Below, in pieces: positions 30,776 through 61,882 of a stretch of 64,000 nucleotides of DNA. Source of the stretch: Quercus robur (taxonomy: Eukaryota > Streptophyta > Magnoliopsida > Fagales > Fagaceae). The translations under genes were made by a program, and so were the position numbers. The stretch's first letter is position 1, and every line of letters starts with the position of its first letter. Location of the stretch: positions 13,423,974-13,487,973 of the forward strand of contig NC_065536.1 of NCBI RefSeq assembly GCF_932294415.1, in the 5' to 3' direction. Below the pieces are notes generated by a model. It saw nothing but the letters and a program-made list of their open reading frames with translations. It was not told the origin of the DNA and did no database searches.

Positions 30776-30816
30776 CGTACTATTATATTAGTTTATATTC
30801 ACTTTATTGTTTTCTC

Positions 30817-31109
30817 GGCGAAAATGGGTAATTACCCATAAAACCCAAACTATATAGTTAGTAGGGTCAGTTTAGAAACTATATAGATTTTTAGCAACTT
30901 GAGCCTCAGAGGCTCGATTTTGGGCCCCTAAATCGAGCCTCTAAGGCTCGGTTTAGGTTGTTTCATGTGGCAAAAATCCACGTGGCGTCTACATGGAACT
31001 CGAGTCTTAGAAACTCGAGTTCCACGTAGATGCCACGTGTTAAACTCGAGTCTCTGAGACTTGGTTTACTTAAAGTGAAACCGAGTCTCAGAGACTCGAG
31101 TTTCAAATA
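30817..31109 (+). repeat. Left terminal inverted repeat of the giant MULE
   Basis: It opens with GGCGAAAA and a perfect 14-bp palindrome TGGGTAATTACCCA (30825-30838). It then holds a series of palindromes built on CTCGAGTCTCWGAGACTCG-like cores, each with T-tracts or AAACC/GGTTT shoulders. The order of blocks matches the right terminal repeat read inverted: GCCTCAGAGGCTCGATTTTG, then GTGGAACTCGAG-type, then AAACCGAGTCTCAGAGACTC. Confidence 0.88.
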
Positions 31110-31413
31110 ATGCATTTTCAAAAATAATGCCTCACTCACCTCACACAAATCACTCTCCACTGTCACTCACCCTCACCCTCTCTCTCACAGAGAGCAAACG
31201 CTTAAGGTGACGCTCTCACTCACTGTCTCACCCTCTCACACACTGATCCGTCACTCACTTTCTCCACTCACACTCTCACTCACTTGCTTCTCCATCTCAT
31301 TGTTCTCATTCTCAGTCAGTCTCACTCTCAGTCTCAGTCAGCCTTCGCCAAAAGCTTCGATCAAGCCACAGCAAGCTTTGAGTCTACGCGGTCTCTTAAA
31401 ACTAAAGAAAAAG
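31110..31413 (+). promoter_or_regulatory. CT-rich leader/promoter candidate next to the left TIR
   Basis: Directly inside the terminal repeat is a CT-rich tract (CACTCTCACTCACT-type runs) followed by CAAGCTTTGAGTCTACGCGG and a good splice donor (AAAAAG|GTGAGT after 31413). MULE promoters lie in or next to the TIRs, so this may be a first untranslated exon of a rightward transcript, possibly that of the PMD gene. No transcript evidence. Confidence 0.3.
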
Positions 31414-32559
31414 GTGAGTTGCTTTGTACCCACCGTTGACTGTTTGGTTGCCGAGAAACATGCATGAAAAATTAAAGAAAGTCATCAGTCACGAATTTGT
31501 TTTCTATTTTGGTTTCTGTATTGAATTTGTAATAAAACTGTTAAACCTGCTAAAAAAGAGCGAAACTTTATTGTGTTTTGAGATTGAATTGGTTTGTGGG
31601 TTTGATTTTTTTTGTTTTGTTTTGTTTTGTTTTGTGCTTTGTTCTGTTTGTGGGTTGATGTGTTGATATGAGGGAAATTTCATACTCAAATCTTGAACTA
31701 TGCATTGTTTTGCAGTGATGATGTTAGGGTTTGTTAACTGGGTCTTTGTTAAATTAAATTGTTGATGTTAGGGTTTGTTAAAGTTGATGATAGGGTTTGT
31801 TAAAGTTGATGATTTAGTGTTTAATTTGATCCATGTTACTGAAAGTTTGATGACTTTCTTCTTGGTAAATTTAATAATGTCTTAAACCCCTTTTTATTTT
31901 TCTAATTTTGTGAATTCTGCATCTGTGCTCCTTTAAATTTTATTTACATTTAAATATTTCAATTGGGTTGTCATTTTAAATTTTTTTCGCATTTAGTAAT
32001 TTTAAATTTTCCATATGAAGCATATGCTTAGTGTAATTGTAATTGGATAATGATCAAAATATACTTATAATAGATTGATTGAAACATTTAGGAGATATTG
32101 GAATGGGCTTGGCTGCTTCTCTTAGGATTATTTCTGTTCCTTCTTTTTTAAAACAGAGGAGCCCTGTGGCTAATAGCTTCTGTTGACTTTTTTAGAGATT
32201 ACATGTCTTACTTTTGACGGATGTGATGTAGCAATATTTAGGACTAGTGACCTGACAACATCACATAATCTCTTTCCAAATTCTCCTTTTAAACGAACAC
32301 TGAAAAAAATGGGATTCCTGCTCTCCAAGCAGGCACTACAAAATACACAATTTATGTCTCCATTGTATCCCCATCAAAGGAGCCTATCTCTAGGGCCAAC
32401 CTGTTTCTAAGTGCTAAACACCCGATAAAGGGCACGCTAAGGGATGGCTAAAGGGAACCAAATCAACCTCCACCAATTAACCATAGGAGGCTTGGATAGA
32501 AATCCTTCCGGGTTTCAGTATGACTAAAATCTAGCATAATTAAAAACATCCCAAATAGA
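31414..32559. other. Non-coding DNA inside the MULE, left part
   Basis: T-rich DNA with a TTTTG microsatellite at about 31607-31634 and a GTTAGGGTTTGTTAAAGTTG phrase repeated near 31725-31815. From about 32100 the sequence may be further LINE debris. Nothing firm. Confidence 0.4.
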
Positions 32560-33400
32560 TTCTCCACCAAAAAAAAAAAAAAAAAAGAGAGAGAGAAACC
32601 ACCCAAATAGGCTGATCCACATCTTCTAGCTTAATTAGATATAATTTTCTTTGGATGGAGACTAAGTCATCTGGCCTTGCATGATTTCAACACCAGTCAG
32701 AACCCTTCAACACACATCAACCTTGGCATCCATGTTGCTAGCAGAACCATATACTGCTCTGTATCCATATTTTTCATATGCCCCCCATCAGCATGCCACC
32801 AATCATGCATAAGGAAAATAAGGATCCCATCCCCAACTGAAACTTCAGATAAGGTCTAGCAAGGCTTCTCAAGCTTAGGATCTTCCTCCAGCCCCAGGTA
32901 CACTATTGAGGGACCGTAACAACTTAAAAGCTCTTCCCCTTTTGAATGTTATAGTGCACCCAGGTCACACATAAAGAACCTGCTTGTACAAAAAAATTCT
33001 AATTATGCTTTAGAACGGCTGCCTTATTCCATTCCTCTATCCTTTTCAACCCCAAACCTCCTTTCATTGGCACACAATCCAAGCCCAAAACAACTATAGC
33101 ACCCCAACATACTTCTCTCAAATTTTCTACAAAAAGCTACTGAATTCTTGCTCGATAGCTTTTACAAACTCCTAGGCAGTTGAAACAACTAGCCAAATCA
33201 CCTAGCACTTGTATAGAATACTGATTGAAGGAGCTGAGGTCTTCTTGCTGAGAGATTTTTAGCTGTCCACCATAATTTTATCAATTAGAGATGATCATGA
33301 AAGCTCAATCTCCCTGATATTAATGGGTACCGAAAAAGCAACCTGCTTTCCTTGTACTCCTTGACACTTAGCTGCATAATCATAGTAAAAGCCTCTATTG
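32560..33400 (-). mobile_element. LINE fragment (ORF2 3' part)
   Basis: The minus strand reads in pieces like the C-terminal half of plant L1-type ORF2. KEGGLGLKRIEEWNKAAVLK (33066-33007) corresponds to the conserved GGLG-h-R...WN-A motif after the reverse transcriptase, followed by a WRK-L-LR stretch and a FLMHDWWHADGG-like stretch resembling the F-W-D-W-P-G-L segment. Several stops interrupt it. 5'-truncated and old. Confidence 0.7.
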
Positions 33401-33579
33401 CAATTGCAAATAGTTAAGTGCACGAATGGCTAACCTCTTTCCAGGAGGGTATCTAAAAAGTATCTATGACCCGAGAAGATGAAAGATAAAACAATAGTTA
33501 TGTCAGCCAATATGAGTAGAGGACCAAAAACTCATTATTCAAGATATACCAACCAATAAATCATCAGAGTTTATAAGGG

Positions 33580-34475: not shown

Positions 34476-37400
34476 CTACAATAAGATTCTCAGATAACTT
34501 ACTTAAATAGGCAAATAAAAATGAAATAATTGGCATGAGAACAGATTAAAAGACATAATTAAAGCAAGCACTATTGTTACCTTCAGAATAAAAATGTCCC
34601 GACTGTGTAACTTACATGATAATGGAACATATCAACTTAGAAAAATCCTCAATCCACACACTTTAAGTAAATTGCACTCAATATGGGCAAACTAGTATCT
34701 ACGAGAGTAGAAAAATTTGTATGATGCATCTCCAAACAGCTGGTTTCCATTATAATAACAAATAAGAACTTTGAAAATGTAATAAAAAAATAAGTACTAA
34801 TAGTTCAAATGCTCAACACAAAGTGACAATGACCTTAGTTAATTAGTCCTTTGCCACAAAATCAATACGGTGGAATAAAAAAGAAAAAGTTCAACTTTTT
34901 GTGAAAACACAGAGAAAGGATGCAAGAATTTGGAAATATTATGGAGCATTAACTTTAAACAGACATTAATAATTCATATAAAAGGTGTTTCCAACCCTAA
35001 ATTTTTTGTTAAAGCGTTAATAAATACCCTTAAAATTTTGAAGAAATAACTTAATCAATAGCAATCAAAAAATTCAAATCTACATGCACAACTAAAAACA
35101 TATAACAAGCTGTAATTTTTTTCCCCATCAGAATATATGTAGCCTACACAAAACATAATCATACACCACAAAAAGACTATAGTATAGCTATTAGGTTGTG
35201 TTCCGCAGGTTGCCTTGGGGTTGTCATTATATGTATCTGATGAGCATGGGTTTTCCACCTTGCATTTTTTGAAGTATTACCAGTCTATTGCTAGTGATTT
35301 TTCTCCAATCAAATTAAGGTTTCCTCAAACAATAAGAAAAGAGAAGTCAGGTGTGGCATAAAGCCATTAAAAGCAGGAGGATAGTGAGGTTGTGGTTTCA
35401 AAACCCATTGGGTCGTGTATGACTTACCCATTTAAAAATAAATCAAAAATCAAAAATAAAAATAAAAAGGAAGAAGAAGATAAACAAAAGCCATTAAAAA
35501 AGGACCTTTATAGCACCATCTCAAGTCAGTAAACAGGAAGCTCCCTGCCCTCAATAAGCACAGCTTTTCCCTCTTCCTCTATATACACCATACCAACTAC
35601 AAAGGACCTTCCTCTGTAGTTAGCCACCAAATCCAACAGTGATCTAGGTGTACTGCCACAGACACAGGCACAGAGCAAAACAGAAAAGAGAGAAAACAAT
35701 TCCTAGAACTGTAGAGTGGACCCAAAGATGGCACAAAACATCACTTCAATGCATGGAACACCAACAAGTGATAAAATGACATCTCTTGATCATACTTCCA
35801 CCATAAGTATATACAACAAAGCTTTAATGAGCCTAAGAAGGATATGTTCAAGGGAACCCCAAATCACAAATAGTTTGCCAAGGGAAAGCATTGCTCTAAC
35901 TTTGCTGAAGAACCTCATGAGACGACCAAACCACAAAATTGTGGCTTACTACTGTCTCAAGCACTGTTTTATGTAATCTTCATCACATCACATCCTCTTA
36001 TATTACCAAAATCATTCATAACATATTCCAAATTAGGAAAGGCATCATATAATTCATTCCTAGTTAGCTTCGACAAACCTGGCACTCTGGTGAAGTTCCC
36101 CTTCCAAATAAACCATAGGAAGCAAATAAGCTTACAAACTTCCACTTCAAATGGACAAAGCATTTTTCGTGCCCTTGAGACGGCATAACATCATTCGGTA
36201 ATATATTTTATGTGATAATCATATTCAATAAGGATTATTGTATTTCTATTCTTTTTCTTTTCTTTTCTTTTTTTTTGTTGGGTGGGGTGGGTGGGAAGTG
36301 GAGAGATAAGTTATGTTAATTATTCTTGATGCTTCACCTTCAAGGAAAACTGATAAACAAAGGGAGACAAAATGTTTTATGGTTTGTAAAAGTCTTTGCT
36401 TGTGCAGGCAGAACAGATATGGCTAGGGTATTAGTATCTTTTAGCCAGAAAATGCATTTTTTATTGATAAGAAGAATTTTCAAATAGCCTAATCACTAAA
36501 ATCTATTGAGCAATAGTATATGAACAATAATATACCTCCCATGTACTAGAGCTATGCCCTCTTCAAGATTTCTAATAAGGTCTTATCATATACCAAAAAT
36601 TTACTCAAGTACGTATTTAGCTTCCTAGGTCAGAGGTCTCTGAGATAAATTATGCAGAACATGCTCCTCTGGGTAACAAAGTCACAATGCCTATACATTA
36701 CTGCATAAATGAACAGAGGATGCAGAAATTGAGTGATGACAGATTCTGCATCTTTTGAGCCAAAAAGATGAAACTCGTAATTACAAGGCCGTGTCTCAAT
36801 TATAACTAGTAACCTTTCTGTGTCATAATGAATTTGTATAAACAGTTTTCATAATAGGAAAAAGCTGCTAATTATCACACTATTTAATAACCTTTAATTG
36901 GATTAATATATTGAAAATTCCACAATTGTATTATATATTTTATTTGTTCTTACTATGGACACCTATTTTTGTATTAATAGGATTTTTTTTATTGTCTAAT
37001 CCATGAACTTATGTTTTATGTATACTTTTAAATGAGATAATAATTAAAGTCTAATAATTTTGATATTTAAAACACATAAAAAAAAAAGTAATTAAGAAAT
37101 TTACTTATTATGTGGTTGTCATGACATCAATCACAATTATTATGATGTCATTTTTTTTTTTGGAGAAGAATTATCATGTCAATTTGTAAGCATTTTGTAA
37201 TAAAATTGATATAAAAAAAATTGTTTCTTTCATTCAAAAATTAATTTATTTAGTTGTTGATATGAAATCAATCAATACTATTTAATACATTAGTTTCTTT
37301 TTTCTTTTTCTTTTTTTATGTTCCTAAATTACCCTTTAATCTCATGTTTGATAGTAAGTTTATCAAAGCCCTTCATTGTATTGTGGTATTTGTAACTAAG

Positions 37401-37657: not shown

Positions 37658-40600
37658 ATGGCTGTTGCAAATGCTGGACGCATTGACTATACACAGCCTG
37701 GACCCATTGACGACTCGGTGTTGTCACAGCAGGCGACGCATCGGTCCGAAGCTATTTGGAATGGGCGGGTAAAACACTCAACTAAATATTTACTTGTGCA
37801 CATGCATTTAATCCATACAATGTACACGTATTTGCATATACTATATTAATCCATGATTTTGTTATGTGAAGGATCCAGGGTCCATTACCTGCCGTAGTCG
37901 TAGTTTAGAGTTCTCCAAGCAACCTCCAATGGTGGACGACCGAGTGAGGAACATCATCACCACAGTTGGTTTGGAGGGACTCCTGTGGGTCCCGGGTAGA
38001 GAGATTGACAATGGCCTGATAACGGCCTTAGTGGAGCGATGGCGGCCTGAGACTCACACCTTTCACATGCCACATGGTGAGGTGACCATCACATTGCAAG
38101 ATGTGGAGGTTCTTCTCGGGCTTCCTGTTGATGGTGACGCTATAACAGGGAGCACACAAAAAACTTGGGTGGATGTGTGCCGGGACTTCCTTGGCTTTTG
38201 ACCTGTAACTCAAAACAACCATAAGCAACTTGATGGGCAGAGGATTCTCATCAACCGCCTTTTGGAGGAAGTTGCTAACCCATTGCCGCCTGATGCTGAA
38301 GAGGATCAGCTGCATAAGTACGCACGATGCTACATCCTAGCGCTATTGGGGGACACAATATTCATGGACAAATCCGGCGATAGGGTGCATCTAATGTGGG
38401 TGCAGCAATTGGAAGACCTTCACAACCCATGGAGGTACAGTTGGGGAAGTGCTTGCCTTGCATGGTTGTATCGAGAGCTATGCAGGGCAAGCGAGGACGC
38501 CAGTCAGATTGGTGGGTGCTTGCTGTTGCTCCAGTACTGGGCATGGGCCAGGTTCCCTTATTTGTGCCCGATAGTTGAGCGAGGCCCGCCAGTGGGTGCT
38601 TATGGTCCTCCAGTACGTGGTCCACTATCCCTGAAGTAAGTCTCTACCTCATACTGCTATAACATACTGTTATGTGATCATTACCAACTCCACAATCATG
38701 TAACTTGATATTATTTATTGATTTTAAAGGCTTCTAACAATTTTTTATGTCAACATAACAACATTTTAAACCGAGGTTCAATGTAGTTGATTATGTTAAT
38801 CTACTATAATTTTGTGACTCTCAATATAGCTGGTTTGTGCTTTGTCTTTTAAAAGGGCCGTTTCTTATTCCAGTGATATTATTAATTAGTTTAATATCTT
38901 TAAGATTATCTCAGTAGTTATATGTGATTACATTATCTTAGTTTTAACAGACTCATAAGTTTTATATTGATATTGATATTATTAATTAGTTTAATATCTT
39001 AGTTTTAACATCCAATTAACATTAATTGCTACGTTTCAGCTTTTAGTATTATATTGATATTTAATATATGTGATTACATTATAGTTTTAAGATTATCTCA
39101 GTACTTATTGATCCATTCTTCTTGATTGTAGGTGGTTGTGGGTCCCAAACAAGAAAAATAGGCCCGCCCACATCTTCAGGGACAGGTATTGCGAGCAACT
39201 AGCTTCCATGTTGCTAGACCAGGTATGAAAATGCCTTATTTTACGCTTTTACGAACATCCATATAGGTTTTGTGAACTTTGAAATATAAACATTGTTCCC
39301 TAATGTGTTGTGTACTTTTTTTTGGCTATTGTAGGTGGTGTGGTAGCCATATGAAGCTCATTTTGACGACCTCCCGTCGTGGTGTGTTGCAGGGAGGGCC
39401 GTATGGACGGCAACGGTGCCGCTTGTATGTTTCCACCTAGTAGAGAAACATACACCGGATCGTGTTGTTCGTCAATTCGGGATGATCCAAGAAATTCCCG
39501 AAGCTGTTAACACTGACAGAGTGCTTCATGGCATTGATTTGAGGGGGAAGATCGGTGTTAATTGGATGCAGAAACATGCTGTGCATATCCTTGAGTGGGG
39601 TAATCGCTTTTATCGGCGTTGTGAAGCAGTGCTTGGTGATATGCCTCCAGAGCACGAGTACCACGACTGGTTCAAAAGGGTGACTCGGAGGTTCATCGAT
39701 AGGCCTGGTGCTGTAGTGACTCTGCTGGTTACTTCTTAATGTCTTCTACATGTTACCGTGTTTCTTACCATGAAACCACTGTTTAGAGAGCATGATGTTT
39801 ATTACTACATTTTTTGCTTAGCACTTCATCTCCCTTTAATTTGCAATTATTAGTAGCAGAACCAACATTTATTTTATTATCAATTGGCATTGTTGATTTC
39901 GTATTGCAGGTCTAATATGTGTGGTTTTTCCATGTGTAGATTGAAGGATACGTCTGTTTGTTTAGGGGTGTCAATTCGGGTTAGCGTGTCGGGTTCGTGT
40001 CGTGTCGAGGTAGGGGTATTCGACTAAATGGCTCAACCCTAACCCGACCCATTTAATAATCGTGTCATGATCCTTCAACCCTAACCCGACCTGTTAATAA
40101 AGCGGGTTGACCTGACCCAACTCATTTGACACACTTAATAAACAAGTCGTGTTGGGTTGACACGAATGTAACACAACTTATTTCAACCTGCATAATATTA
40201 AATATAACATCCATCTAGAAATAATTTTTTTTACATCCCAAAAAACAGTGCATACACTTCAAGTCTTTAACCCACATTCAAAATAATATAGTTCAACAAA
40301 AATATAACATTCATCTAGAAATAAGTTTTTTACACTCCAAAAGAAGTGCATACACTTCAACCCAAATTCAAAATAACAAAGTTTAACAAAAATAAAATAA
40401 CATAGCTCAACAAAAATATAATATCCTTGGAACTTGTCAAATGCTAAGTATCAATATTGAAAGAATTTGAGCAAACAGTAGACTAATCCTAACTATGACC
40501 ACAATTACCGTCCATAGATTCTTTGTTAATGTCCAAATTCATAACATCTTCCACAAGCTCATCCAATTTCATTTGTGCAAGTTCTATGCCAAAAAAAAAA

Positions 40601-41789
40601 AAAAAAGTATTAGTAGTTCTAGGGTTTGTAAAGTTTCAATTTTCAATTATATTCCTTGTAAATTTTTATAATTACTCACTTTTCTTTTTTAATTTAAAAT
40701 ATATGTTGGATATAAAAGGTATTTGACAAATCTAAAATAAAATAAATATTTATTTGTTATACGAGTTAAACGAGTTGTGTTAAATGAGTCATTTTGGGTT
40801 GACACAAATAAATTGGCGTGTCAAACGTGTCTATTGCGGGTTACGTGGGTTGACCCGCTTATGACATTTTTCTTATCGTGTCGCTTTCGGGTCAACCCGT
40901 TTATGACCCAAACCCATTAAGGCCCAACCCTAACCCGAAAAAACTCGTGTTGGGTTCGTGTCGTGTTCGCGGGTTGGGTCGAACATTGACACCCCTATGT
41001 TTGTTGAGGCGTCATCCAGTGGGCACGGAGGACCACAATGACATTACTGAGGTGCTGACGGCAGTGCAGGCGATGACACGTGTCCAACCTCCTATCCCTG
41101 AGGCCCCGATTGAGGAGGCAGCTATGCCTACTGGCCCAAGCACGAGCACAGCTCCGGCCGGATGTCAATCCCGTCTGCCTGTTGCTACCCCTCAGCTTCT
41201 CCCTACCCCCGATCCCTCTGCATCCACCCCACATGCATCCGCCAGCCCCACCATCCCTTCATCCACCCCACATCCATCCCCTACCGTCACCATCCCTTCA
41301 CCCAACCCACATTCAGCTCCTACGCCCACCATCCCTTCACCTAGCCCACATCCAGCCCCTACGCCCACCATCCCTTCACCCACCCCCCATCCATCTCCTT
41401 GCCCCACCATCCCTCCACCCACCCCACTTCCTTGTTCTAGGTCTGACGTCCGTCCACCCACCCCACAGTCATTTCTTCAGCTGTCACCCATTCCATCCTT
41501 TGACCTGGGTACCCCACCTGACATGCAGCAGGAGCCACCCTCCCATAGTTCGTTTAGTACCCCTTCTTCAGCCATTGACCCACCCCATGTTCAGGCTGAG
41601 CAGGTGGTTGGGTTACCTACAGCGGCTGAAGGTCGGCCTAAACGCATATCAAAGGCACCTCCGTGTGGGACAGGGGGGCACAAACATGGACATAATGTTG
41701 GGCCCGAGGCATCTGACGAAGGACATGCAAGACCTCCTCCTCATTATACGAGACGGCGTAAGATTCAAAAAAGGTATCTGAAAGCTTAA
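37658..41789 (+). pseudogene. Plant mobile domain (PMD, MAIN-like) gene, decayed
   Basis: Exons: 37658-37768, 37872-38635, 39132-39232, 39335 to about 39732, and a last exon from about 39942, split by a hAT element and ending at 41789. Family landmarks are PGPIDDSVLSQQATHRSEAI, LITALVERWRPETHTFHMPH, GEVTITLQDVEVLLGLPVDG, DKSGDRVHLMWVQQLED, YSWGSACLAWLYRELCRASE, WVPNKKNRPAHIFRDRYCEQ and AHFDDLPSWCVAGRAVWTAT. This is the PMD of MAIN/MAIL1-like proteins (often labelled phosphatase 7 long form homolog). The C-terminus is a Pro-rich tail with about six repeats of a HPSPTPTIPSP type. Two in-frame stops (near 38199 and 39344) and the hAT insertion show it is no longer functional. PMD genes are known to ride on MULEs and on LTR elements; this copy sits inside the MULE. 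Confidence 0.85.
39955..41005. mobile_element. Non-autonomous hAT element inserted in the PMD last exon
   Basis: The element (39963-40997, 1035 bp) begins TAGGGGTGTCAAT and ends with the inverse, ATTGACACCCCTA. A perfect 8-bp duplication TGTTTGTT lies at 39955-39962 and 40998-41005, diagnostic of hAT. Subterminal GGGTTCGTGTCGTGT-type repeats occur at both ends. No transposase. Removing it in thought leaves a continuous PMD exon around the single TGTTTGTT, so it landed in coding sequence. The start of the open frame at 40878 lies in this element, not in the gene. Confidence 0.88.
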
Positions 41790-45977: not shown

Positions 45978-46022
<45 letters not shown>

Positions 46023-48659: not shown

Positions 48660-48730
48660 CTGAGGTATATATATCTCACAGACTACTGTATGACTCTTTG
48701 TAGGTGGGGATTCAATCACATGCAGTGGAT

Positions 48731-49229: not shown

Positions 49230-49908
49230 GTAAGTTGTTGTGTCACTGTGCAGAGTTTTTTAGCATTAAAGTTACCTCTATTGGGTTTCACTTTGTATGA
49301 TTTTCGACTTTATTCATTGTATTACAGTTGTCATGAAGCGTCATGCGCTGCTTGAGTCACTTTGATTTCCCAATGTAATTATATTACTTGTAAATTTATC
49401 ACACCCTTTTTTTTACATAGAGTAAAAAAATTCCTATATCAGAAAGTTAAGTGCTTTATGGCGAGTCTGCAACTTCTATTTAGTTATCAGGATGTCATTT
49501 AATCAATGTTTTGGCTCAAATGTCATGGCATTGTAATGGCTGGATATGGTTGTCATGGGATGCTAAACACTAACTTATTTTTCATTTCTTTTTTTATTAT
49601 TCTCTTCATTTAGGAATTAGGATGGGTGGCTAGTCATTAAGATTGATGGATTTATTTAAAGTTGATTGCATAACACACAAATATTGCATCTAATCAATTG
49701 CAGTAATTTTATTTTATGTTCCTAGATATATATTTTTTACTTTCTTGAGTTTTGGTTAGGATTTGGTCAATGACGTTATCTAAAAAATTGACAGTGAGAA
49801 TGCTTAGGGAAGAATTACAGCTACTCCAGGAGCCTGGATCATTCATGCTATTTTCTGGCTGCTGTAATTCCTTCCTAACTCTCTCTGATTGCTTTTGGGT
49901 GACAACAG

Positions 49909-52636
49909 AAGCTGGAGAGACTTCAAGAAGAGGAATTAGTAGAGAAGCCATTTCAACGGAAACAAATGAAAATAAGGTTCCCTGAGCATGGAAGAAGTGG
50001 AAGATCTGTTGTAACAATTAATAACTTGGAATTTGGCTTTGGAGATAAGGTGAATTGATATACTTAATCAAACTAGGAAGAGGGTTCTAGAAACATTGAA
50101 TTATCTATTTCTGATTTTTATGTTTTATGAAATTGATGAGTTGTGTGTCAGGTGCTCTTCAACAAGGCAAATCTTACAATTGAAAGGGGAGAAAAACTTG
50201 CCATAATTGGCCCAAATGGATGTGGAAAGAGCACTTTGCCGAAATTGATAATGGATTTAGAGAAGCCAAGAGGGGGTGAAGTTTTGCTTGGGGAGCATAA
50301 TGTCCTGCCAAACTATTTTGAGCAAAATCAGGTGTGTTAGTGTCTACAATGTTGTATCTCCCATTTATCTAATGATCATGGTGTTTCTACTTTTTCATGC
50401 TTAATTCTAAGCTCCAATGGTTTTACAAACATATACATGTACTTCATATATATTTTTATATAATTGGCAGTTTGTATGTTTTGCTAATTTTTTGCTTGTG
50501 CTGACTGACACTGACCCGCATCTATTTTAGGTTGAGGCACTTCATTTGAATAAAACAGTGCTTGAGACAGTAGTAGAAGCTGCAGAGGACTGGAGAAGTG
50601 ATGACATAAAGGGACTCCTTGGGCGTTGTAATTTTAAAGCTGATATGCTTGATAGAAAGGTTTCTCTTTTGAGTGGTGGTGAGAAGGTAAGCTAAAACTG
50701 TATGCTCTTATGCGATTTTGTATTCTCTCCTAGTGGACATATATCTAGCATTTATGTGTTACATAACAAGTTCTGTTTTGTGCTTCAGATCTTTAACTGG
50801 AAAATTTACCTATCAAAAAAAAAAAAAAAAGACAAAAAAACTTTAACTGGAAAATTAATTTATAATTTTCTTAGTCTCTTGTATATACACTAGAGTAGTA
50901 TTGTACTTTAATGGAGAGCAGAAATTATCAACAGCATTAATTTCCTAGTCTCTTGTATATATTTCATAATGTTAAAGAGTACTATTGTAGTTTAATGGAA
51001 ATAAGAAATTACAGCACAATTTGGTGGATTTCATTTCCGGTGATAGTTTGAGGATTTTTGGACAAAGTCTTGTGATTTCCTGAATGAAAACTGCTGAGAT
51101 GATAGACAAAATATACAACTAAAAACCATTAGATGATTTTGTCTATGTCATTCTTAATTCCAGTGTTCTGATTTTTCAGCATGGTTTTTGGTGTTTCTTT
51201 TCCACCCCTTTGTCTAATTCAGATTATTTGTTGAGTTTTAGTTGGACCCAAGGAGATTCTAGGAAGGGTGGAAGACACAAATATTTTGTGGATTTTATGT
51301 ATCATTTGGAAGTTAGATGTATGACTTAAACTGGATCTATTTCAATGCATCCAGTGATCTACATGTGTAATTTTTTTCCTGGCATAGGGTTGCACTTGTG
51401 CCTGTGTAAATATGTATGCTTGTCTGTTAAATATATTTCCATTACTTGTTTTCGGTTGAACAGGCTTATTTTCTTACCATGTCTTTGTTTCATTACATTT
51501 ATGTTGTACATTTTCCTTTTAATGAGACATATCTGATTGTTTCTTCCTGTTTTGTTAGGCGCGTCTTGCTTTTTGTAAGTTCATGTTGAAACCGTCCAGT
51601 CTACTAGTTTTGGATGAACCAACTAATCACTTGGATATACCTTCAAAAGAGATGCTAGAGGTTTGGTTTATGTTTTCAGTTAATCTCTGGTTTAGCACTG
51701 TAATCTTTAATGAATGTAGTGGTGCAAAACCTCATGATTACTTTAATCATTTGATGATTTATCAAGAGGCAATAAATGAGTACCAGGGAACCGTTATCAC
51801 AGTTTCTCATGACAAATACTTTATAAAGCAGATAGTTAATAGAGTGGTGGAAGTTAAAGACTGCAATTTACAAGATTATGCAGGAGACTACAATGTAAGC
51901 CCACCTCCTCCCCTCTTCTCTCTTAAAAGAACAGCATAATTTAAGATTTACAAGCTTTTTGAGGAAAATAAATCTGAGCCTGAGAACCTAGTCATGATTT
52001 TATGGCACTTCACATTTGCTGTGATGACCACAGGTACACCAAATTTCAGACTATCAAGCTTAGCAGTGCCTAGTGCCTACATTTCATATCAAACCAAGCA
52101 TACAAAAGTTTTAAGTGCCCATTGAGGCCTAATTTGTGATCATATCATGAGATACATTATTGACATTGTTAAGCCCATTATGCAACTATAAATGAAAAAA
52201 AAAAAATTATCATATCCCATGTGCATAGCTTAGTGGGAGTCTGGACGTTGTCCTCCATGTAGTGCAATTATCCAATTGCTAAATTTATTAGTACTTTATG
52301 ACCTTGTGTATATATTACAGTATTATCTTGAGAAAAATCTTGATGCGAGGATGAGGGAGCTAGAACGTGAGGCCGAGCTTGAGGAGAAGGCTCCTAAAAT
52401 TAAAGCCAAATCCAAGATGTCTAAGGTAAGCATTGTTGTTATTATTACCAGCATTATGAAACAGGAAAGGAAATGATATAGCTTCATAAGCTTATGCTGT
52501 AGCAATCTGAGCCCAAATTTAGATTTTGTTCCTCTAATAGGCCGAGAAGGAAGCCCTGAAGAAGCAGAAAAGGCAAGCATTTCAGCAGGCAAAACAAAAA
52601 TCAAAAGGAACGAACAATTCTAAGAGGTGGAATTGA
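49909..52636 (+). pseudogene. Captured 3' half of ABCF5 (ABC-F ATPase)
   Basis: Seven exons: 49909-50049, 50152-50331, 50531-50686, 51559-51660, 51766-51894, 52321-52425, 52541-52636 (stop TGA). They cover the inter-domain linker and the whole second ATP-binding domain: Walker [10 protein letters not shown] (followed by Leu-Pro where the family has Leu-Leu), signature LLSGGEKARLAF, Walker B LLVLDEPTNHLD, switch His in VTVSHDKYF-like TVITVSHDKYF, and a Lys-rich end SKGTNNSKRWN. The first ATP-binding domain is missing, so about 300 of some 690 residues remain. The acceptor before 51766 reads AA where AG is needed; the 105-bp intron is free of stops and in frame, so retention would insert 35 residues. 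ABC-F proteins act on ribosomes in organelles or cytosol. As it stands this is a truncated copy. Confidence 0.85.
50791..50856 (+). mobile_element. Ultra-short LINE insertion (34 bp) with 16-bp duplication
   Basis: CTTTAACTGGAAAATT is present at 50791-50806 and 50841-50856. The 34 bases between are TACCTATCA plus an A run, the same 3' end as the LINE at 44.08-44.36 kb (TTACCTATCAAAC). It is an extreme 5' truncation in an intron of the ABCF5 copy. Confidence 0.75.
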
Positions 52637-54235
52637 TTGATTCACCCATATTCTTCATTGAAGATTCCTCCAATGTTTCAATTATTTTTTTTTACTTGTA
52701 AAACAGCCTAGGAGATGAGGTGGCCTGTTGTGAGCCAGGTAGTTGTCCTCATGTATATAATTTAAATAGAATTATAGGTATTACTTGAAATTAAGGCTGT
52801 AATTGAAAATCTTGTTCTAGCAATTTGTTCTCCTTTACTAATGATTGCAGAACCCCGACAACATGCATTTATGCTTTCGAAAGCCATATAATGTAAGGAA
52901 AACATGAAGGCAGGAGTTCAGGGACTGTTTGATTATAGCCCCTTTTGAAAACCTGGTTCTAGATATCATTTTACCATAAATCCAACAGAGTTCTTGAATG
53001 TATGAAGTGTGCTAAATAAATGAAGCCTAAATTCAGAAAATACATTCAAGTATGACATGGTAGCCTCCCAGAATGACGTAAAACCCACCGGTAGCTAGCT
53101 AGTACTGCTTTGGTTGTTACTTATTATTATTATTTTTTGGCTGACACAACTAGTATTGTGTTAGACTAAGTACATTGAAAGTTGGGGTGCCTACCACGAA
53201 CCTTCTTGGAATGAATCTTAAAATTTTGTATGTGATAGTGGTTGCATCAAAGATGGTTGTTGTTGCTGTTCTGAAACTTGCAACCATTGGCAACGACAGA
53301 TGCAAACTTTGAACTAGATTTGTAGATTCTTTACCCAAAAAAAGAAAAAAAGATTTGTAAACAAATAAAATAAATGGAATGTTAAATTACTAACTTGGTT
53401 TCAAACTATTTGGGCTAAATTTAATTTAACACTCAACTACTATTTGTATAATTGTATCAATATTTTTTTTTTTAGAAATACTATTTGTATCAATTTAATC
53501 ACTTAACTTTCAAAATCAAGCCAATGTCATCATTATGTGTGAATTTTTTTAGTAACTTTAATAAAATGGCCACCCTCCAAAAAAAAAAAAATTAATAAAA
53601 TGGCCAAACTACAATTTTTTGGTTTTTATAAATTTGTCACAGTTTTAGTTTTAGTTGGGTCTTGTTAACAGATGCCCTTAGATTATTTGTTACCAAATCA
53701 TTTTTAAGGACAAAAAGTTAGTTAATTTTTTTTATCAAATGCTTTTAAAAATAGTTCCTAAACCTATACTTTTAGAGCATCGTAAATTTTTCAAGCCATT
53801 TAATAGTATCAATTTTGTCCCTCGACTTTCAAATCAATTTCCCCAACTATTAGTTGTATCAATTTTGTTCATACACTTTTAAAACCAATTTCTAAGAATA
53901 AAATTAACTTCATTTAAATGTTGAAAGTCGAAATTAGCACATTTATATTAACATTGATGCCAATTTAAAGTTATATATATACACACTATTTGTCAAAGTA
54001 ATGGGGAAGAATAACGTTTTAGTTAAGGTAAGTAATATTCCTATATGAATGCACTTAATTGTAAATTTGCAGCTGTGCCTTAACTATTTATTTTTTTGAA
54101 AAATAATGATATTTTAGCAAGGGAATAGACTATTACATGCACAAGGAGTGCCTTAGGAGTGCCTTTTTGTTAATAAGAGATGGTTTGAAAACAGTTTGAA
54201 TACATTTTTATCTAATGTTTCATATTGTTTCCCAG
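52637..54235. other. MULE interior between ABCF5 and RPT6 copies
   Basis: The first part is the ABCF5 3' UTR. From 53.4 to 53.95 kb are phrases such as ATTTGTATCAATTTAATCAC repeated loosely, likely decayed repeat DNA. No gene is recognised. Confidence 0.4.
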
Positions 54236-55072
54236 GTTCATCTTGAACGGAAATATGTTGTTGACATTGATAAAAATATCGATATCACCAAGATAACTCC
54301 ATCAACAAGAGTTGCTCTCCATAATGACAGTTATGTGCTTCATTTAATCTTGCCAAGCAAAGTTGATCCATTGGTCAACCTCATGAAAGTTGAAAAGGTT
54401 CCAGATTCCACATATGACATGATTGGCGGTCTTGACCAGCAAATTAAAGAGATAAAGGAGGTTTGCCTTGTGTACCCTTTTACTTTCTGCATTTAAACTG
54501 GTAGTGGCAATGGTGACAGTGAAGTGCAGCGGACTATGCTGGAGCTTCTCAACCAGCTGGATGGATTTGAAGCATCAAATAAAATAAAGGTATCGTGTGT
54601 GTTTTCATTATGCAGATTGGGTTGTTTAGTTTTTGGTACTTTTCTTTATTGTGACCTCAACTATTTAAACAGATTCATCTCTTATTGTAAGTATTTGGCA
54701 AGCATGTCAAAATAGGCTTCATTCTTGTAAAGATTGCCAGTATTTTATTCAATTTAAACAATCTCAACTCTTTTCGATGGATTTGGACAGAATGATAAGT
54801 ATAGTCTTGTTAATTCCATAACGACCTATTGCACTGGGCTATTAAAGTCTTCAGAAGTGAAATATTGTGTGTTTTCTCTGTGCATAATCATATTATCCCT
54901 TCTTCCTTTTTTCGTTTTTTTTTTGCTGCAGGCTGTGTGCACAGAATCTGGGATGTTTGCTCTGAGGGAGAGGAGGGTTGATGTAACACAAGAAGATTTT
55001 GAGATGGTAGTGGCAAAGGTAATGAAGAAGGAGACCGAGAAAAACATGTCATTGCGGAAGCTATGGAAGTAG
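54236..55072 (+). pseudogene. Captured, internally deleted proteasome RPT6 gene
   Basis: Three recognisable exons: 54236-54460 ([36 protein letters not shown]), about 54498-54589 ([30 protein letters not shown]) and 54932-55072 ([20 protein letters not shown], ending [15 protein letters not shown], stop TAG). This is the 26S proteasome regulatory AAA-ATPase 8 (RPT6/SUG1). The part coding Walker A and Walker B is gone: the first two pieces are only about 37 bp apart where about 100 residues should lie. The second region of homology and most of the small AAA subdomain are also missing. The N-terminal coiled coil is absent. It cannot function as an ATPase. Confidence 0.88.
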
Positions 55073-55935
55073 TGTGTCTCCATGTTAATGTTTTGTTTCA
55101 CTCCACCACCCTGAATATAATTGATCCGTGGCTTTGTTCTTCACACACAGCCAACAGCTCTGTTCTTTGTATGGATATAAAAGCCACATGGGGGTGCCTA
55201 CACTTTGTTGAAGTTTTTTAAATACCACTGGCATCTCTGTTTATTTTGTTAAATATTCTTTTGTGATACATTTTTATGTAATATGTGTTTTACTTCAAGT
55301 ATCTGACAAGAATGTCCGTAGACAATGACTGTCAATCTGTTATCAATCTATTGGTTAGACGACCAGAATGATAATTAAAAATCTGTGCTTAGTGGAGAAG
55401 CACATGTGGCTTAGTTTTCTGGGCATGTGTAGCTGTAGCATGAGACATAGCACTCAGGGATCAATCCTACCATGTAGTGGTTGTAAATGAGCTAATTAGA
55501 GTTAGAACTTCAATTATATTCAAAATAAAATTAAAAGAACAAGTTTGAACTTTTAATATTCCACTCAATTTTCTTGCTTATAGTTTGTGCATTACAATGT
55601 GATATGAAATTATACTGAATGTGTGCTTTTTGTGTATTGTTGGATTGTGAAGACATGAGATGTTGATTTTCTTTTCTTTTTCTTTTTTTTCTTTTTTTTT
55701 TTGGATTTACAGGGTTGGGTTACTTAGATGTTGGCAGTTGAAAACAAAAAAACCAGATTGTATAATTTTATTTTGTTCATTTCAGTTATATTTTTGGATT
55801 TACAAGGTATTACTCTTCGATGTTGGCGGTTTAGTAAAAAATTACCTGAAATTAGTTCTCAAATGGGGTAATAACAAAAAATTGAAAAAAAAAATCCCAG
55901 TAGAACTCTAGTTTAATGGGGTTACCATAAATGGA
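55073..55935. other. MULE interior after the RPT6 copy
   Basis: RPT6 3' UTR-like DNA, then (55380-55500) a possible tRNA-like SINE remnant (GTGGCTTAGTTTTCTGGGC with GGGATCAATCCT), then T-rich DNA. No gene is recognised. Confidence 0.4.
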
Positions 55936-56306
55936 AATCGAGTCTGTAAGACTCGGTTTCTACTTATAGAAATCAAGTATCTTATACTCGATTTCCATAA
56001 ATAGAAATCGAGTCTCTAAGACTCGATTTCCATAAATAGAAATCGAGTCTCTAAGACTCGATTTCCATAAATAGAAATCGAGTCTCTAAGACTCGATTTC
56101 CATTTATGGAAACCGAGTATAAGATACTCGAGTTCCACTGGGAATTTTTTTTCTTTTTTGGCCGCAGGTTGGGACCAGAATTATTTTTTAGTTCTCAAAT
56201 TGGGGTAAAAAAAAAAGAAAAAAAAATTCCCAGTAGAACTCGAGTATTTTATACTCGGTTTCCATAAATGGAAATCGAGTATAAGATACTCGAGTTCCAC
56301 TGGGAT
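55936..56306. repeat. Array of palindromes related to the MULE terminal repeats
   Basis: Eight palindromes are present, including three adjacent 35-bp units with core CGAGTCTCTAAGACTCG and shoulders GAAAT/ATTTC, and four with core CGAGTATAAGATACTCG or its variants. The same GAGTCTCWRAGACTC logic makes up the terminal repeats at 30.9-31.1 and 61.2-61.5 kb. Blocks AATCCCAGTAGAACTC and CCGCAGGT(T/G)G are also repeated. It lies about 700 bp past the transposase stop codon. Confidence 0.8.
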
Positions 56307-57016
56307 TTTTTTTTTTTTTTTTGCCGCAGGTGCATGGACCAGAATTAATTTTCTCCCCTGCAGCAATTTTTCTAGGGTCCAGAACACATCAAACAACTAC
56401 ATACCAGCATATGATAGGCGAAGGGTACATACATTAAAGTTCTACAACCAGATTAAAACAGTAACTATTCAATAAAATTATTGTTGGACAAAAGTCTTAG
56501 CACACAATGGCAGTTCAATACTAGAAGGGCCTTGTGGTTAAACTTGCCAAAGTAATATCATTGTTCGTATTATAGGAAAAAGCTGCATCACGCAACTAAT
56601 GTAACGAGTAAAATGGATAGCAAATAGTTCAATTATCCGTAATTTACAACAATAAACAAAATAACAACTAAGTTAATACAACATAGTCTACATATTCGCT
56701 TAGCGGAAGCTCCATACTGATATAACATATTATACATATTCATCTAACACTTGTCCATACTGATACAACATACTCTACATAATCACCTAGCTTGTCCATA
56801 CAGAAGATCACGACAAGTCCCACGTACAATGTCACTTACGAAAATCAAGTCTCCGCTTGCCTGACAAACATTAAATACGGTTATTAGTTTCCAAATGCAA
56901 AGAACAAAAACCAAATGACATTCTGAGTATATTAGATCAATATAGTGACGGCACTTGCCTAGTTCATAGCACTACCACTTGTCGAAGCCCCATGGGAATT
57001 GGGACAGCATCTGCGG
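56307..57016. other. 3' flank of the transposase gene
   Basis: AT-rich DNA with several repeats of a CTACATA/TGATACAACATA type phrase (56.65-56.79 kb). It probably holds the transposase 3' UTR. No other gene is seen. Confidence 0.4.
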
Positions 57017-59764
57017 TTATGCCCCTCTTGATGACACTCTACATCGTTGTCTCGGTTGAATCTCCTTCAACTTCGGATCTTCCCTCCGGCTTCCCCGTTC
57101 TCGCCGTACCCCATCCATTTCATTCCTTATTCTTGACATCGTAGGACGACCTTTGGCCCACAACAATTGTGGGTCAGGCACCCACCGTGGTCCGCGAACG
57201 TCTGTCCATAATGACTCTGACTTTGGCACCACAAAATTATGTGAATATGTGAGAATGACGTTGTTCAGACTGTAACATGGGTCAATATAGCTGGGCGCAT
57301 CGAGATGCAGACCTTTAAGAACTTTAATTGCATGTGAACAAGGGATCTTCAAGTTTTGCCACTTTCCACAACCACAAGTTCTATCAAATATGCGCACATC
57401 ATGACTGTGATTTCCCCCTCCAGCTCTATGGTCGTTATACGGGGTAACCACTTGATATATACCCTCTGCATGATTATAATTCCTCAGAGTGTGTCTTGCA
57501 ATTTTCTGCTCATTTTTGTTATAGATCTCCATTGCATAATCACTCCACACCTTACCTCGAGAGAGATCAGAAGTAATTTGTTTATGTCGATCGTGGAAAT
57601 ATGCAACAAGTTTAAAATAAGTGAACTCAACCATTGCAGCAATGGGCAAACCGCGGGCACCTTTAAGGACCCCATTAAAGCACTCAGAGATATTGGTTGT
57701 CATTGCCCCGTAACGTCTTCCACCATCATGTGACTGGGTCCATTTGTCTACATCCTCACTCATTAGATATGTGTATGGCATATAACGTATAATCCGGCGA
57801 TCAGTAGGGTCTACACCCCTCAGTAAATTAATCTCGGCCTCCTTAATGGTTTGCATTATGGACACAAATTTAGCATCATGAGTCGCATATCCAGCTTTCA
57901 AGGCCAATGCCTTTAAAGTCGGGTTATCAAAATGTGTGTTGAAGTTGCTAGCAACATGTCGAAGGCAATATCGATGATATACCCGTTCTCTTCCGTCTTG
58001 CCCTCTAGGCCACTCTCGAATGGCGCATTTGATACCTTTATGTCGGTTAGAAATAATGCAAATGTCCTTGTTTTCAATAACACGCTCTATCGAAGTCCTG
58101 AGACACTCTAAAAACCACCCCCAACTAGGCCCTGACTCCTTGTCCACAACAGCAAAGGCGATAGGCAAAACCTTTTGATTAGCATCGGTTGCCATTGCAA
58201 TCATCAATACCCCTTTGTATTTACCATATAAATGAGTTCCATCAATACTGATCACTGGCCTGCAATACTGGAATGCAGCAATGCATGGAGCGAATGCCCA
58301 ATATACATAGCGCAGTAACGTAGTACCTTCTAATGGCTTAGGTATGGTGTGATAGCTATACTGGGTACCCGAATCCTGATCCAAGTATGCCAACAACAAC
58401 TTTCGCAACCTTTGGTAAGACTCCTCCCAATCTCCAAAATCCTTAGCAATTGCCTTTTGTTTTGCGTCCCATACTTTATAGTAAGAAAGCTCATGATCAT
58501 ACTTAGTACGTATGATCTCCCAAAGCTCATCAACAGTAGTAGTGTGCTTTTTTCGCAATCTTCCCACAATTTCTGATGCAACAAAATTAGAATCCATCAT
58601 TCTACCGTCTCTTCGCAGCCCAAAGGGTATACAACTGTGTGGACCCACATAAGACGTGACCATCCACAGATCATTGAATTTAGGCTTCATGTATGCCCCA
58701 ACGTACCACTTGCAGTTGTCGTCAACGCATGCGGCGCACAATTGAGTTGTGCTCGACCTTTGGATGGAGAAATTTCTATTATCCTTTGCTGCGTATATTA
58801 TCAATGCACGCTTCACCACAGCTTTATTTGCAAAAGTCAACCCTTTACAAAAATGCATCCCATCTTGCCAAGTACAAAGAAATGGTATCTGAAGACGTGA
58901 AGGATCAACCATATCTTCCCAAGTATTTGCGTAGAATGAGTCCGCAGGAGGTCTGTAGCCAGTGGTCGTATCTGTATCATGCTGGACACCAATATCATCA
59001 TCATCTGCATCGCCTTCATCATGGTACTCCATATTTTCCTCTTCAAAATTAGGAACGACTTCATGCTCATCCACATCGTTCTCAAAGTCACCTTGCTCAA
59101 TCCTCTCTTCGTACTGATCCATATCATCATTATTTTCACTATCATTCGCAGCATGATTTTCGTCTTCGTCTTCCTCCTCTAAATGTGTCTCTTGAGAGTA
59201 GAGGGTTTCACCAGTATTCGCAACATAATCTTGAGATGGGAGCGTATAACCTCCCATTGCATACCCTCCCATTGTAGTGCATCCATCATCTAGGGCTGTA
59301 AATTGTAAAGCCGTAGATGTTTCTTGCACCACCTCAGTACTGTTGTCTACACTCGCCTCCAAACTTACATACAACTCAGCAGCATTTACTTGGGGCATTT
59401 TCTGGATCCTATTAAACATCATCTTTACATGTTTATCTTCTTTAATCGCCATATACCCGTAATTTATCCGTTCATGAAGGACTTCTTGTGGGCAACGATA
59501 AATAATCTTGATGTCATACCAAGCAGGGTTTAATTTCAATTCGTCCATTATTTTCCTCTTCAAATCAGTCAACGTCTTCAACTTACGACGTAACATCATG
59601 TAGTAGCATTCGATACCCTCCCCTCTAAATGGGAATCCGTCAATCCCTTCAGGATTGTAAAGGGGTCCACCGAAGTATACATTTATGTCAATATTCTTCA
59701 AAGATTGTGAACCTATTAGAGAGCCAAGTAAATTTATGTTAGTGACATATTTGATCTCTTTCAT
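57017..59764 (-). CDS. MuDR-type MULE transposase
   Basis: An uninterrupted, intronless frame of 915 residues. Order: N-terminal MuDR/PB1-like region (about 5-140, YFGGPLYNPEGIDGFPFRGE); acidic linker (about 195-270); a Cys/His zinc-binding stretch (CAACVDDNCKWYVGAY...HSC); the MULE DDE domain; a SWIM zinc finger (C797, C799, C809, H811 in CGCGKWQNLKIPCSH); and a basic tail. The RNase-H-fold acids appear at D508 (VISIDGTHLYG) and E694 (TNISECFNG). The position usually filled by the second Asp is N573 (CIISNRHKGI where the family has SDR). The gene starts about 1.4 kb inside the right TIR and is read leftward, the usual layout of MuDR mudrA. It is expected to bind the TIRs and cut and insert the element; the D-to-N change may block catalysis. 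Confidence 0.92.
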   Translation of the reverse strand: MKEIKYVTNINLLGSLIGSQSLKNIDINVYFGGPLYNPEGIDGFPFRGEGIECYYMMLRRKLKTLTDLKRKIMDELKLNPAWYDIKIIYRCPQEVLHERINYGYMAIKEDKHVKMMFNRIQKMPQVNAAELYVSLEASVDNSTEVVQETSTALQFTALDDGCTTMGGYAMGGYTLPSQDYVANTGETLYSQETHLEEEDEDENHAANDSENNDDMDQYEERIEQGDFENDVDEHEVVPNFEEENMEYHDEGDADDDDIGVQHDTDTTTGYRPPADSFYANTWEDMVDPSRLQIPFLCTWQDGMHFCKGLTFANKAVVKRALIIYAAKDNRNFSIQRSSTTQLCAACVDDNCKWYVGAYMKPKFNDLWMVTSYVGPHSCIPFGLRRDGRMMDSNFVASEIVGRLRKKHTTTVDELWEIIRTKYDHELSYYKVWDAKQKAIAKDFGDWEESYQRLRKLLLAYLDQDSGTQYSYHTIPKPLEGTTLLRYVYWAFAPCIAAFQYCRPVISIDGTHLYGKYKGVLMIAMATDANQKVLPIAFAVVDKESGPSWGWFLECLRTSIERVIENKDICIISNRHKGIKCAIREWPRGQDGRERVYHRYCLRHVASNFNTHFDNPTLKALALKAGYATHDAKFVSIMQTIKEAEINLLRGVDPTDRRIIRYMPYTYLMSEDVDKWTQSHDGGRRYGAMTTNISECFNGVLKGARGLPIAAMVEFTYFKLVAYFHDRHKQITSDLSRGKVWSDYAMEIYNKNEQKIARHTLRNYNHAEGIYQVVTPYNDHRAGGGNHSHDVRIFDRTCGCGKWQNLKIPCSHAIKVLKGLHLDAPSYIDPCYSLNNVILTYSHNFVVPKSESLWTDVRGPRWVPDPQLLWAKGRPTMSRIRNEMDGVRRERGSRREDPKLKEIQPRQRCRVSSRGA

Positions 59765-60181: not shown

Positions 60182-60212
<31 letters not shown>

Positions 60213-61052
60213 AATATATATACATATATAAATATAAAAAAATATTTATATAAAAATATTTATATTTAGCCTATTTATACAACTCTATAATTAAATATTT
60301 ATATATTTATATAAATATATTTATATAAGTATTTATATATATAGTTGTATAAATATAAAAATAAAAATATATTTATATAAATATTTAATTATTTAATTAT
60401 ATAGTTTTATAAATATATAAATAAAAATATGTATATATAAATATTTAATTATATAGTTGTATAAATATAAATATAAATATATATACGTATTTTTTATCAG
60501 GAAACAAATATACATATTTTAATACAAACAAATATCTTATCAGGAAACAAATATATTTGGCTAATACAAACAAATATTTTATTAGGAAATGGCATATACA
60601 CTAAACAATGCAAGCAACACTTTTTAAAGCAGCTATATACACTAAACAACTAATTAGAGAGTGAGGAGACCCTTACTTGACATAATGATGTGCAAATGTA
60701 CTGCTGAGATTGTATTAGAGTGAGAGGAGCAATGTTTTGCTGCTAAATATGTATGAGAGTTTGAGTTTCTGTGAGAGTTCTTAAGAGAGGTTCTGTGATT
60801 GAAGTTTCTGAAGGTGTGAGAGTTGTTGAGGTTTTGTGATTCAAGTTGTTGAAGGTGTGAGAGTTTTTTACTGTTAGTCAAAAGCTCATTGAGTACGTTC
60901 CTAAACAGACAAAATTGATTCATAATAGTCTGAGAGAAGTTTTGGTGCTTGTGCTCTAGTCTAATATATTTTTTGAATATGTTTCAAAACAGACAAAGCA
61001 CTTCAGCAACGTACTCAAATTAAAGTGTACGAAGCAACAAAGACTGTTGACT
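59765..61052. other. Upstream region of the transposase gene
   Basis: It contains a very AT-rich low-complexity tract of TATATA/TTTATATAAATAT units (60180-60490), then TGTGAGAGTT-type short repeats (60.68-60.87 kb). The transposase promoter and leader probably lie between here and the right TIR. No other gene is seen. Confidence 0.45.
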
Positions 61053-61150
61053 AGCACAGAGCACAAGTAAATAACCAGCACAGAGCACAAGTAAATAACC
61101 AGCACAGAGTGTAGCACAGAGCACAGACTGTTGACTAGCACAGAGCACAA
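61053..61150. repeat. Short tandem repeat next to the right TIR
   Basis: Units of about 24 bp, AGCACAGAGCACAAGTAAAT plus AACC, occur twice in full and then as partial AGCACAGAG(C/T)-type copies up to 61150. It sits just inside the right terminal repeat. Confidence 0.7.
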
Positions 61151-61204
61151 AAAGCTTGACATGACTAGACTTCCAGACGTGACCAATGCAGGGGGAAACA
61201 ATGG

Positions 61205-61582
61205 TTTGAAACTCGAGTCTCTAAGACTCGGTTTCAATTTTAGTAAACCGAGTCTCAGAGACTCGAGTTTCAAGCCACAAAATTATGTTGCTAAAACTCG
61301 AGTCTTTGACACTCGGTTTACTAAATGTAAACCGAGTTTCAGAAACTCGAGTTTTATCTACGTGGAACTCGAGTCTTAGAAACTCGAGTTCCACGTAGAC
61401 TCCTTTGCCACGTCAAACTTTGTCAACATACGTAAACCGAGTCTCAAAGGCTCGATTTTGGCTCGATTTAGAGGGCCAAAATCGAGCCTCTGAGGCTCGA
61501 GTTGCTAGATTCCCAATTTCTTTCAAAACCGGGCCAACTAACTGAATAGTTACATTTTTATGGGTAATTACCCATTTTCGCC
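61205..61582 (-). repeat. Right terminal inverted repeat of the giant MULE
   Basis: Read on the minus strand it begins GGCGAAAATGGGTAATTACC and follows the left repeat block for block, but is about 85 bp longer owing to an extra palindrome unit (AAACTCGAGTTTCTGAAACT). Palindrome cores are of the type CTCGAGTCTCTRAGACTCG and GAACTCGAGTTTCTAAGACT. Confidence 0.88.
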
Positions 61583-61882
61583 TTGTTTTCTCAATCATAT
61601 TCTTAACAAATTCTTAAATTTGCAACAGATTTTCCTTTCATATTTTCCCCGACGTTATTTTTACAGGATTCGAATCCTGAGAATCTCTTGTGTTTGTATT
61701 CTTTTTGATCTCTCTTTCCACGAATAACAAATGCCTCTCTAAAAAAAAGTGAATTAAAAAAAACATTCCTAATGTTTCATTAGGTACACGTACTTCTCAG
61801 CAACGCCACAATCAATCAAAGTAAATGTTAGCCCAAAATCAATTTGGGTCAAAACAAGCACAAATACTCCGAAAGCAAATTC
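61583..61882. other. Target duplication and GSH2 5' flank
   Basis: The right copy of TTGTTTTCTC (61583-61592) is followed by host DNA leading to the glutathione synthetase start. The giant MULE thus landed about 300 bp upstream of the first GSH2 ATG, probably in or near its promoter. No clear TATA box is seen. Confidence 0.6.

Follow-up and report, generated by a model that had tools for sequence, protein, structure and literature searches.

A stretch of 64,000 nucleotides of the Quercus robur genome (assembly GCF_932294415.1, contig NC_065536.1, positions 13,423,974 to 13,487,973), hereafter the window, harbors a Mutator-like element (MULE) with a length of 30,766 bp, excluding its target-site duplications. 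We consider it likely that this element arose through a single insertion and is an oversized MUDR-type oak MULE, non-autonomous in its present state, that carries cargo between two converging genes, a plant-mobile-domain (PMD) gene and a transposase gene.

Ends and limits of the element

The presence of one MULE insertion, bounded by a single pair of ends and a single duplication, is well supported. The terminus GGCGAAAATGGGTAATTACC starts at position 30817 and its inverse copy ends at position 61582. Both are directly flanked by the decamer TTGTTTTCTC, located at positions 30807–30816 on the left and 61583–61592 on the right and identical at 10 of 10 positions, which reproduces both the coordinates and the identity given in an initial annotation of this DNA. 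At the base composition of the window, the probability of a chance match of 10 bp is approximately 2.5e-6 per pair, and an exact decamer match at the spacing of the element occurred at only one of the 33,214 start positions tested, namely 30807. The left terminal inverted repeat (TIR; positions 30817–31107, plus strand) and the right TIR (positions 61205–61582, minus strand) share their first 27 bp, and their inverted similarity extends over 305 columns with 73.4% identity, plus additional short pieces, in agreement with the 300 bp or so initially proposed. The element therefore displays two MULE hallmarks, a target-site duplication of 8–11 bp (here 10 bp) and long TIRs. Neither end was found paired with another partner in the window, an arrangement that the initial annotation had asked to be looked for, and a third copy of the 21-bp terminus was absent from the window at up to 3 mismatches (shuffled sequences also gave 0). 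A search of viral contigs with the 27-bp terminus yielded no match, as expected.

Converging transposase and PMD genes

The transposase is encoded by an open reading frame (ORF) of 915 amino acids (aa) on the minus strand (positions 57017–59764), in which the Pfam domains MULE (PF10551, E 8.6e-16) and SWIM (E 4.7e-6) were recognized; the MuDR DNA-binding family DBD_Tnp_Mut scored slightly below its cut-off. A structure model of the protein, of middling quality (mean predicted local distance difference test score, pLDDT, of 61.8) and used for the fold class only, retrieved an ISCth4 transposase as its top match (E 2.9e-6, with a low template-modelling score), and all five matches at E values up to 0.001 were chains of this transposase, which we take to belong to the bacterial Mutator kin. 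Together, PF10551 and the fold match provide the transposase domain that defines the MULE superfamily. The closest relative, P0001 from Quercus lobata, shows 96% identity over 98% of the protein and falls into a 39-member cluster distributed over 3 contigs; the best named relatives outside the Fagaceae are those of Arachis (29% over 90%) and Glycine (31% over 72%).

An alignment with 48 homologues placed the catalytic triad at D508, N573 and E694. The structure model places D508 within a strand belonging to an RNase-H-like run, N573 immediately past a later strand, and E694 in a helix. Among the 37 aligned homologues having a residue at the middle position, 35 carry Asp, one Ser and one Gly; from this alignment and the usual organization of DDE (Asp-Asp-Glu) folds, we assume that position 573 is that of the second catalytic Asp. 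The intact DDE triad of an autonomous MULE is therefore absent, with Asn at position 573. In addition, a frameshift precedes the C-terminal zinc knuckle (CHQEGHNRR..C), which is lost from the ORF but still legible in another frame and is retained in P0001–P0004. The initial claim that the element carries its own 915-codon transposase holds insofar as the ORF is a MULE transposase; this copy looks catalytically dead.

The PMD gene, whose presence had also been proposed initially and whose domain was recognized here, occupies positions 37658–41789 on the plus strand, in pieces at approximately 37658–37768, 37869–38636, 39121–39225, 39335–39730 and 41001–41774. It is interrupted by two in-frame stops, at 38199 and 39344, both at codons that specify a residue in the relatives P0050 and P0058. 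Among the best 120 of 789 relatives, the closest is P0049 from Q. lobata (90% identity over 100%). Because the second catalytic Asp is replaced by Asn, the transposase C-terminus is frameshifted and the PMD gene contains two stops, this copy of the element is most likely non-autonomous, as judged from its coding sequences.

The PMD and transposase genes converge, with approximately 14 kb between their 3′ ends. MUDR-group MULEs are described as having 9–10 bp duplications, TIRs of 30–320 bp, a SWIM domain and, in most members, an antisense PMD gene (PMC6446971), and the element shows each of these traits. The Q. lobata gene model P0058 is co-linear with the element. Its first exon is identical to a 26-aa stretch at positions 35728–35805 (plus strand), its PMD is 96% identical, and a further 40 aa correspond, with 100% identity, to positions 57454–57573, antisense inside the transposase gene. 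According to this model, the PMD–transposase layout is also present in Q. lobata. The combination is in itself not new, and Ikeda et al. argued for two captures of PMD genes by MULEs (PMC5418596).

Host gene pieces carried by the element

Five firm pieces of host genes and a weak one were identified in the interval that separates the PMD and transposase genes. The leftmost is a piece of a leucine-rich-repeat (LRR) protein gene on the plus strand (positions 44893–45497; approximately 43.28–47.15 kb when delimited by eye), followed by a mevalonate kinase piece on the same strand (47427–47573, E 1.4e-7) and by a MADS-box K-box exon on the minus strand (48554–48664, E 2.6e-9), SOC1-like by eye. 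The weak piece, of 20 aa, matches DNA topoisomerase II (TOP2; 49182–49241, plus strand, E 0.013). Several separated exons of an ABC-F ATPase gene, presumably ABCF5-like, extend over positions 50029–52633 (plus strand, right edge set by eye). The last piece derives from the gene of the 26S proteasome ATPase RPT6 (54221–55069, plus strand) and matches residues 81–162, 256–291 and 357–404 of the spinach protein, with two internal stretches missing relative to it. NCBIfam was useful for the ABC-F piece only, and its matches to the LRR piece were taken as generic LRR similarity. Cargo from at least seven host genes had been proposed initially; the count falls short of that figure, with the five firm pieces and TOP2 supplemented only by a weak match to a zinc finger of the long interspersed element (LINE) type. 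Since the cargo exons remain separated by intron-like sequence, we infer that the host gene pieces were captured as DNA. The element thus contains host gene fragments within its TIRs, as Pack-MULEs do; with its 915-aa transposase ORF and its 30,766 bp, it lacks their small size and their absence of a transposase.

Cargo shared with Q. lobata gene models

The RPT6 piece has an altered end, with Asp or Asn for His and Met-Val for Met-Ala, that recurs in the Q. lobata models P0084, P0169 and P0171 and, when read by eye, in P0173. The motif was readable in 106 of 121 proteins (the best 120 of 7,853 matches plus P0084), with His in 103, Met-Ala in 102 and Met-Ser in one. Across 288 proteins compared, the start of the piece, VHLERKYV, was found only in P0169, P0171 and P0173, the form VHPEGKYV being present in 105, and the sequence MGKNNVL, encoded shortly upstream of RPT6 (positions 54001–54021), was restricted to P0171 and P0173. 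The end of P0171 also resembles positions 55710–55745, weakly (75%, E 0.15).

In two models, P0084 and P0104, shared cargo follows a PMD. The altered RPT6 of P0084 is preceded by PMD exons and by a CRAL-TRIO domain; its other cargo differs from that of the element, and it retains one of the RPT6 stretches missing here. P0104 fuses a PMD (96.6%) to IST1 and ends in 18 aa identical to those encoded at positions 47082–47135 (plus strand), which fall, in a different frame, in the end of the LRR piece as read by eye. Erroneous joining of P0084 and P0104 to a flanking gene is less likely because in the present element the shared cargo lies internal to both ends. These comparisons suggest that at least the RPT6 piece probably predates this insertion, or else that it was exchanged between elements or that an altered pseudogene was captured repeatedly; a single capture followed by spread is probable for part of the cargo.

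PMD models with additional domains were compared among the best 120 of 789 relatives, in a table read by hand. A further domain was present in 23 of 92 Fagaceae models vs 3 of 28 others (five of the latter without an assigned organism), a difference that is not significant (Fisher p 0.12). The PMD comes first, with the host domain behind it, in 21 of the 23 Fagaceae models; the order is reversed in P0115 and unconfirmed in P0108. P0119 and P0120 probably represent isoforms of a single gene, for P0109 the host domain scored slightly under the cut-off, and the PMD of P0083, P0084 and P0104 was recognized by BLAST only. The PMD-first order tentatively fits a cargo bay located downstream of PMD, but the same picture would arise from a fragment with PMD that faces a gene in its flank.

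In a separate observation, two Lithocarpus models join PMD to other domains, P0067 to a piece of an AAA ATPase that we read as proteasomal and P0062 to a proteasome subunit domain. With the RPT6 piece of the element, proteasome genes adjoin PMD three times, perhaps by chance.

Origin of the element

The favored explanation, a single insertion of an oversized MUDR-type MULE, would involve the following steps. Its core would consist of the PMD gene (plus strand) and the transposase gene (minus strand), converging between long inverted repeats. Pieces of host genes, introns included, would have entered the interval separating these genes as DNA copies, most likely in several rounds in which a copy that had been broken or excised was repaired by template switching. 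As the altered residues common to the Q. lobata models suggest, acquisition of the RPT6 piece probably took place in an ancestor and was followed by its spread. The element would then have inserted approximately 0.6 kb from the first matched glutathione synthetase codons, creating the 10-bp duplication. If the catalytic change predates the insertion, the element would have been moved in trans by the transposase of an intact sibling. Both of its own genes, PMD and transposase, are damaged now.

Several points weigh against this explanation. At approximately 73% identity, the TIRs are less alike than would be expected of a young element, although MULE TIRs frequently diverge in their inner part. 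Regarding the initially proposed insertion of 30.8 kb as a unit, the single end pair with its single duplication stands. Movement of 30.8 kb en bloc is not established, and the duplication is no proof of it, because additions made after insertion could leave the ends and the duplication intact. Because P0058 carries no information on intron length, the cargo may be missing from its locus, which could also be the orthologous one. The sibling evidence consists of predicted gene models, which can wrongly join neighboring genes, and P0169, P0171 and P0173 are not placed within an element. Repeated capture of one altered RPT6 pseudogene would also explain the sharing. The ESG-for-EAG change in RPT6, also seen in two non-oak sequences, is not diagnostic and was not used.

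Growth in place, which overlaps the favored explanation and differs from it in the size that moved, is possible, albeit rather unlikely. A shorter MULE with PMD and transposase would have inserted, and later rounds of failed excision with gap repair would have filled its middle with host DNA, so that the element never moved at 30.8 kb. The identified cargo does lie mid-element, at approximately 43–55 kb and away from the TIRs, the ends and duplication would remain intact in such a process, and the 168 transposase and PMD relatives show only the RPT6 and 47.1-kb cargo, no search having been made with the other pieces. Against this stand the RPT6 cargo and the PMD-trailing 47.1-kb stretch in Q. 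lobata models, which indicate that parts of the cargo probably pre-existed in the family. A composite (macro) transposition, in which two adjacent MULEs, a left one with PMD and a right one with the transposase (approximately 55.85–61.58 kb), were mobilized jointly along with host DNA trapped between them, appears improbable. It would account for the difference of approximately 27% between the left and right TIRs and for a tandem array at positions 55850–56360, which adjoins the transposase gene on its downstream side and comprises two TIR-like palindromic units. However, this array resembles both TIRs in their inner part only (up to approximately 100–120 columns, 69–81%) and has no recognizable terminus within 3 mismatches; in the MUDR group, single elements usually have PMD and transposase in opposite orientation, and the cargo comprises several partial genes on both strands rather than one contiguous host stretch.

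That nested retrotransposons, and not captured genes, account for the size of the element is very unlikely. A weak zf-RVT trace at 32.3–32.5 kb, a 271-bp palindrome and AT-rich repeats might point in that direction, as might the large share of the interior without an assigned identity; yet no long terminal repeat pair, nor any long direct repeat other than those of TIR type, was found inside the element, and Pfam frame scans detected no integrase, reverse transcriptase or gag family at E values up to 0.1, the weak zf-RVT match aside. Least probable of all is a chance pairing or assembly artefact in which two unrelated MULE ends mimic one insertion, as the exact 10-bp duplication was unique among the positions tested and the Q. 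lobata model P0058 spans the left stretch, the PMD and the transposase region in the same order.

Beyond this single insertion of an oversized MULE, the PMD-first order of 21 of 23 Fagaceae multi-domain models and the altered RPT6 behind PMD in P0084 lead us to propose, as a speculation that is more doubtful than the insertion itself, a class of giant "cargo-bay" MULEs in oaks and their kin. Host gene pieces would accumulate between PMD and transposase and be kept, re-spread and exchanged, with putative chimeric transcripts arising from the PMD promoter; such elements would be the plant equivalent of giant transposons that transport cargo. Already an element with PMD, transposase and pieces of at least five host genes, one of which recurs elsewhere in its altered form, would show that large cut-and-paste transposons can gather and re-spread host DNA across several rounds in trees. 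The element also bears on the size limit of mobile MULEs and on whether capture occurs mid-element or beside the ends.

Comparison with known elements

No MULE of approximately 30.8 kb was found in the open-access literature surveyed, and one may exist in other print. For comparison, the FARE elements of Arabidopsis reach up to approximately 17 kb. The gene-carrying plant MULEs of the surveyed papers are mostly small and without a transposase. The element is a real, oversized and cargo-rich form of the known MUDR-type MULE with antisense PMD. It resembles the MUDR-group MULEs with antisense PMD described by Dupeyron et al. (2019; PMC6446971) in its transposase with SWIM domain, 10-bp duplication, TIRs of approximately 300 bp and opposed PMD, and departs from them in its 30.8 kb, the approximately 14 kb between its genes, its at least five host gene pieces and its broken triad. 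Like Pack-MULEs (Jiang et al. 2004, as cited in PMC6431247), it holds fragments of captured host genes enclosed by MULE TIRs; it differs from them in also carrying PMD and a transposase ORF. The KAONASHI/ULP1 MULEs (PMC2528002, PMC13317346) are likewise coding-type MULEs with an opposed extra gene of host origin, but those are non-TIR elements of Arabidopsis with one captured domain, whereas several partial genes lie between long TIRs here. Multiple-TIR MULEs (Ferguson and Jiang 2012, PMC3310237) also contain extra internal TIR-like sequence without a recognized duplication of its own; in contrast to them, only the inner TIR part is repeated in the present element, in a short tandem array. An extra TIR in such MULEs shares at least 100 bp of TIR sequence; the array reaches up to approximately 100–120 columns of similarity to the inner TIR and shows no terminus within 3 mismatches. 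Abermu (PMC9168764) is similarly MuDR-like, larger than many MULEs and equipped with an opposed extra ORF, and differs in that its excerpted description mentions neither PMD nor multi-gene cargo. In the genus, Mutator elements have been reported from Q. virginiana, within satellites that are putatively centromeric (PMC13042303).

Internal repeats and flanking sequences

The 271-bp palindrome (positions 48731–49001, 89% self-complementary) lies between the MADS and topoisomerase pieces. It is foldback-like or similar to a miniature inverted-repeat transposable element and perhaps represents an insertion; a clear duplication was not seen by eye. The weak LINE-type zf-RVT remnant is located at positions 32299–32490 on the minus strand (19.5 bits, under the cut-off of 27.5). 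For the region from 31.1 to 37.6 kb, no PDB match was obtained in two plus-strand frames, the third plus frame and the minus strand having been scanned with Pfam only, and the window contained neither an Rfam family at gathering score nor a transfer RNA. Positions 60184–60589, upstream of the transposase start, contain AT repeats over approximately 300 bp, along with a 42-bp tandem repeat.

To the right of the element, positions 62150–62287 match glutathione synthetase (3kaj, E 2.8e-13), which agrees with the GSH2 gene initially placed beside it. In the left flank, a single-exon ORF of 426 aa on the minus strand (positions 22010–23290) encodes an F-box protein (Pfam F-box), and a C-rich tract occupies positions 30718–30740, approximately 65 bp left of the duplication. 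The same flank includes, at positions 25087–29609, two direct-repeat pairs approximately 3.5–3.8 kb apart, with identities of 71% and 81%.

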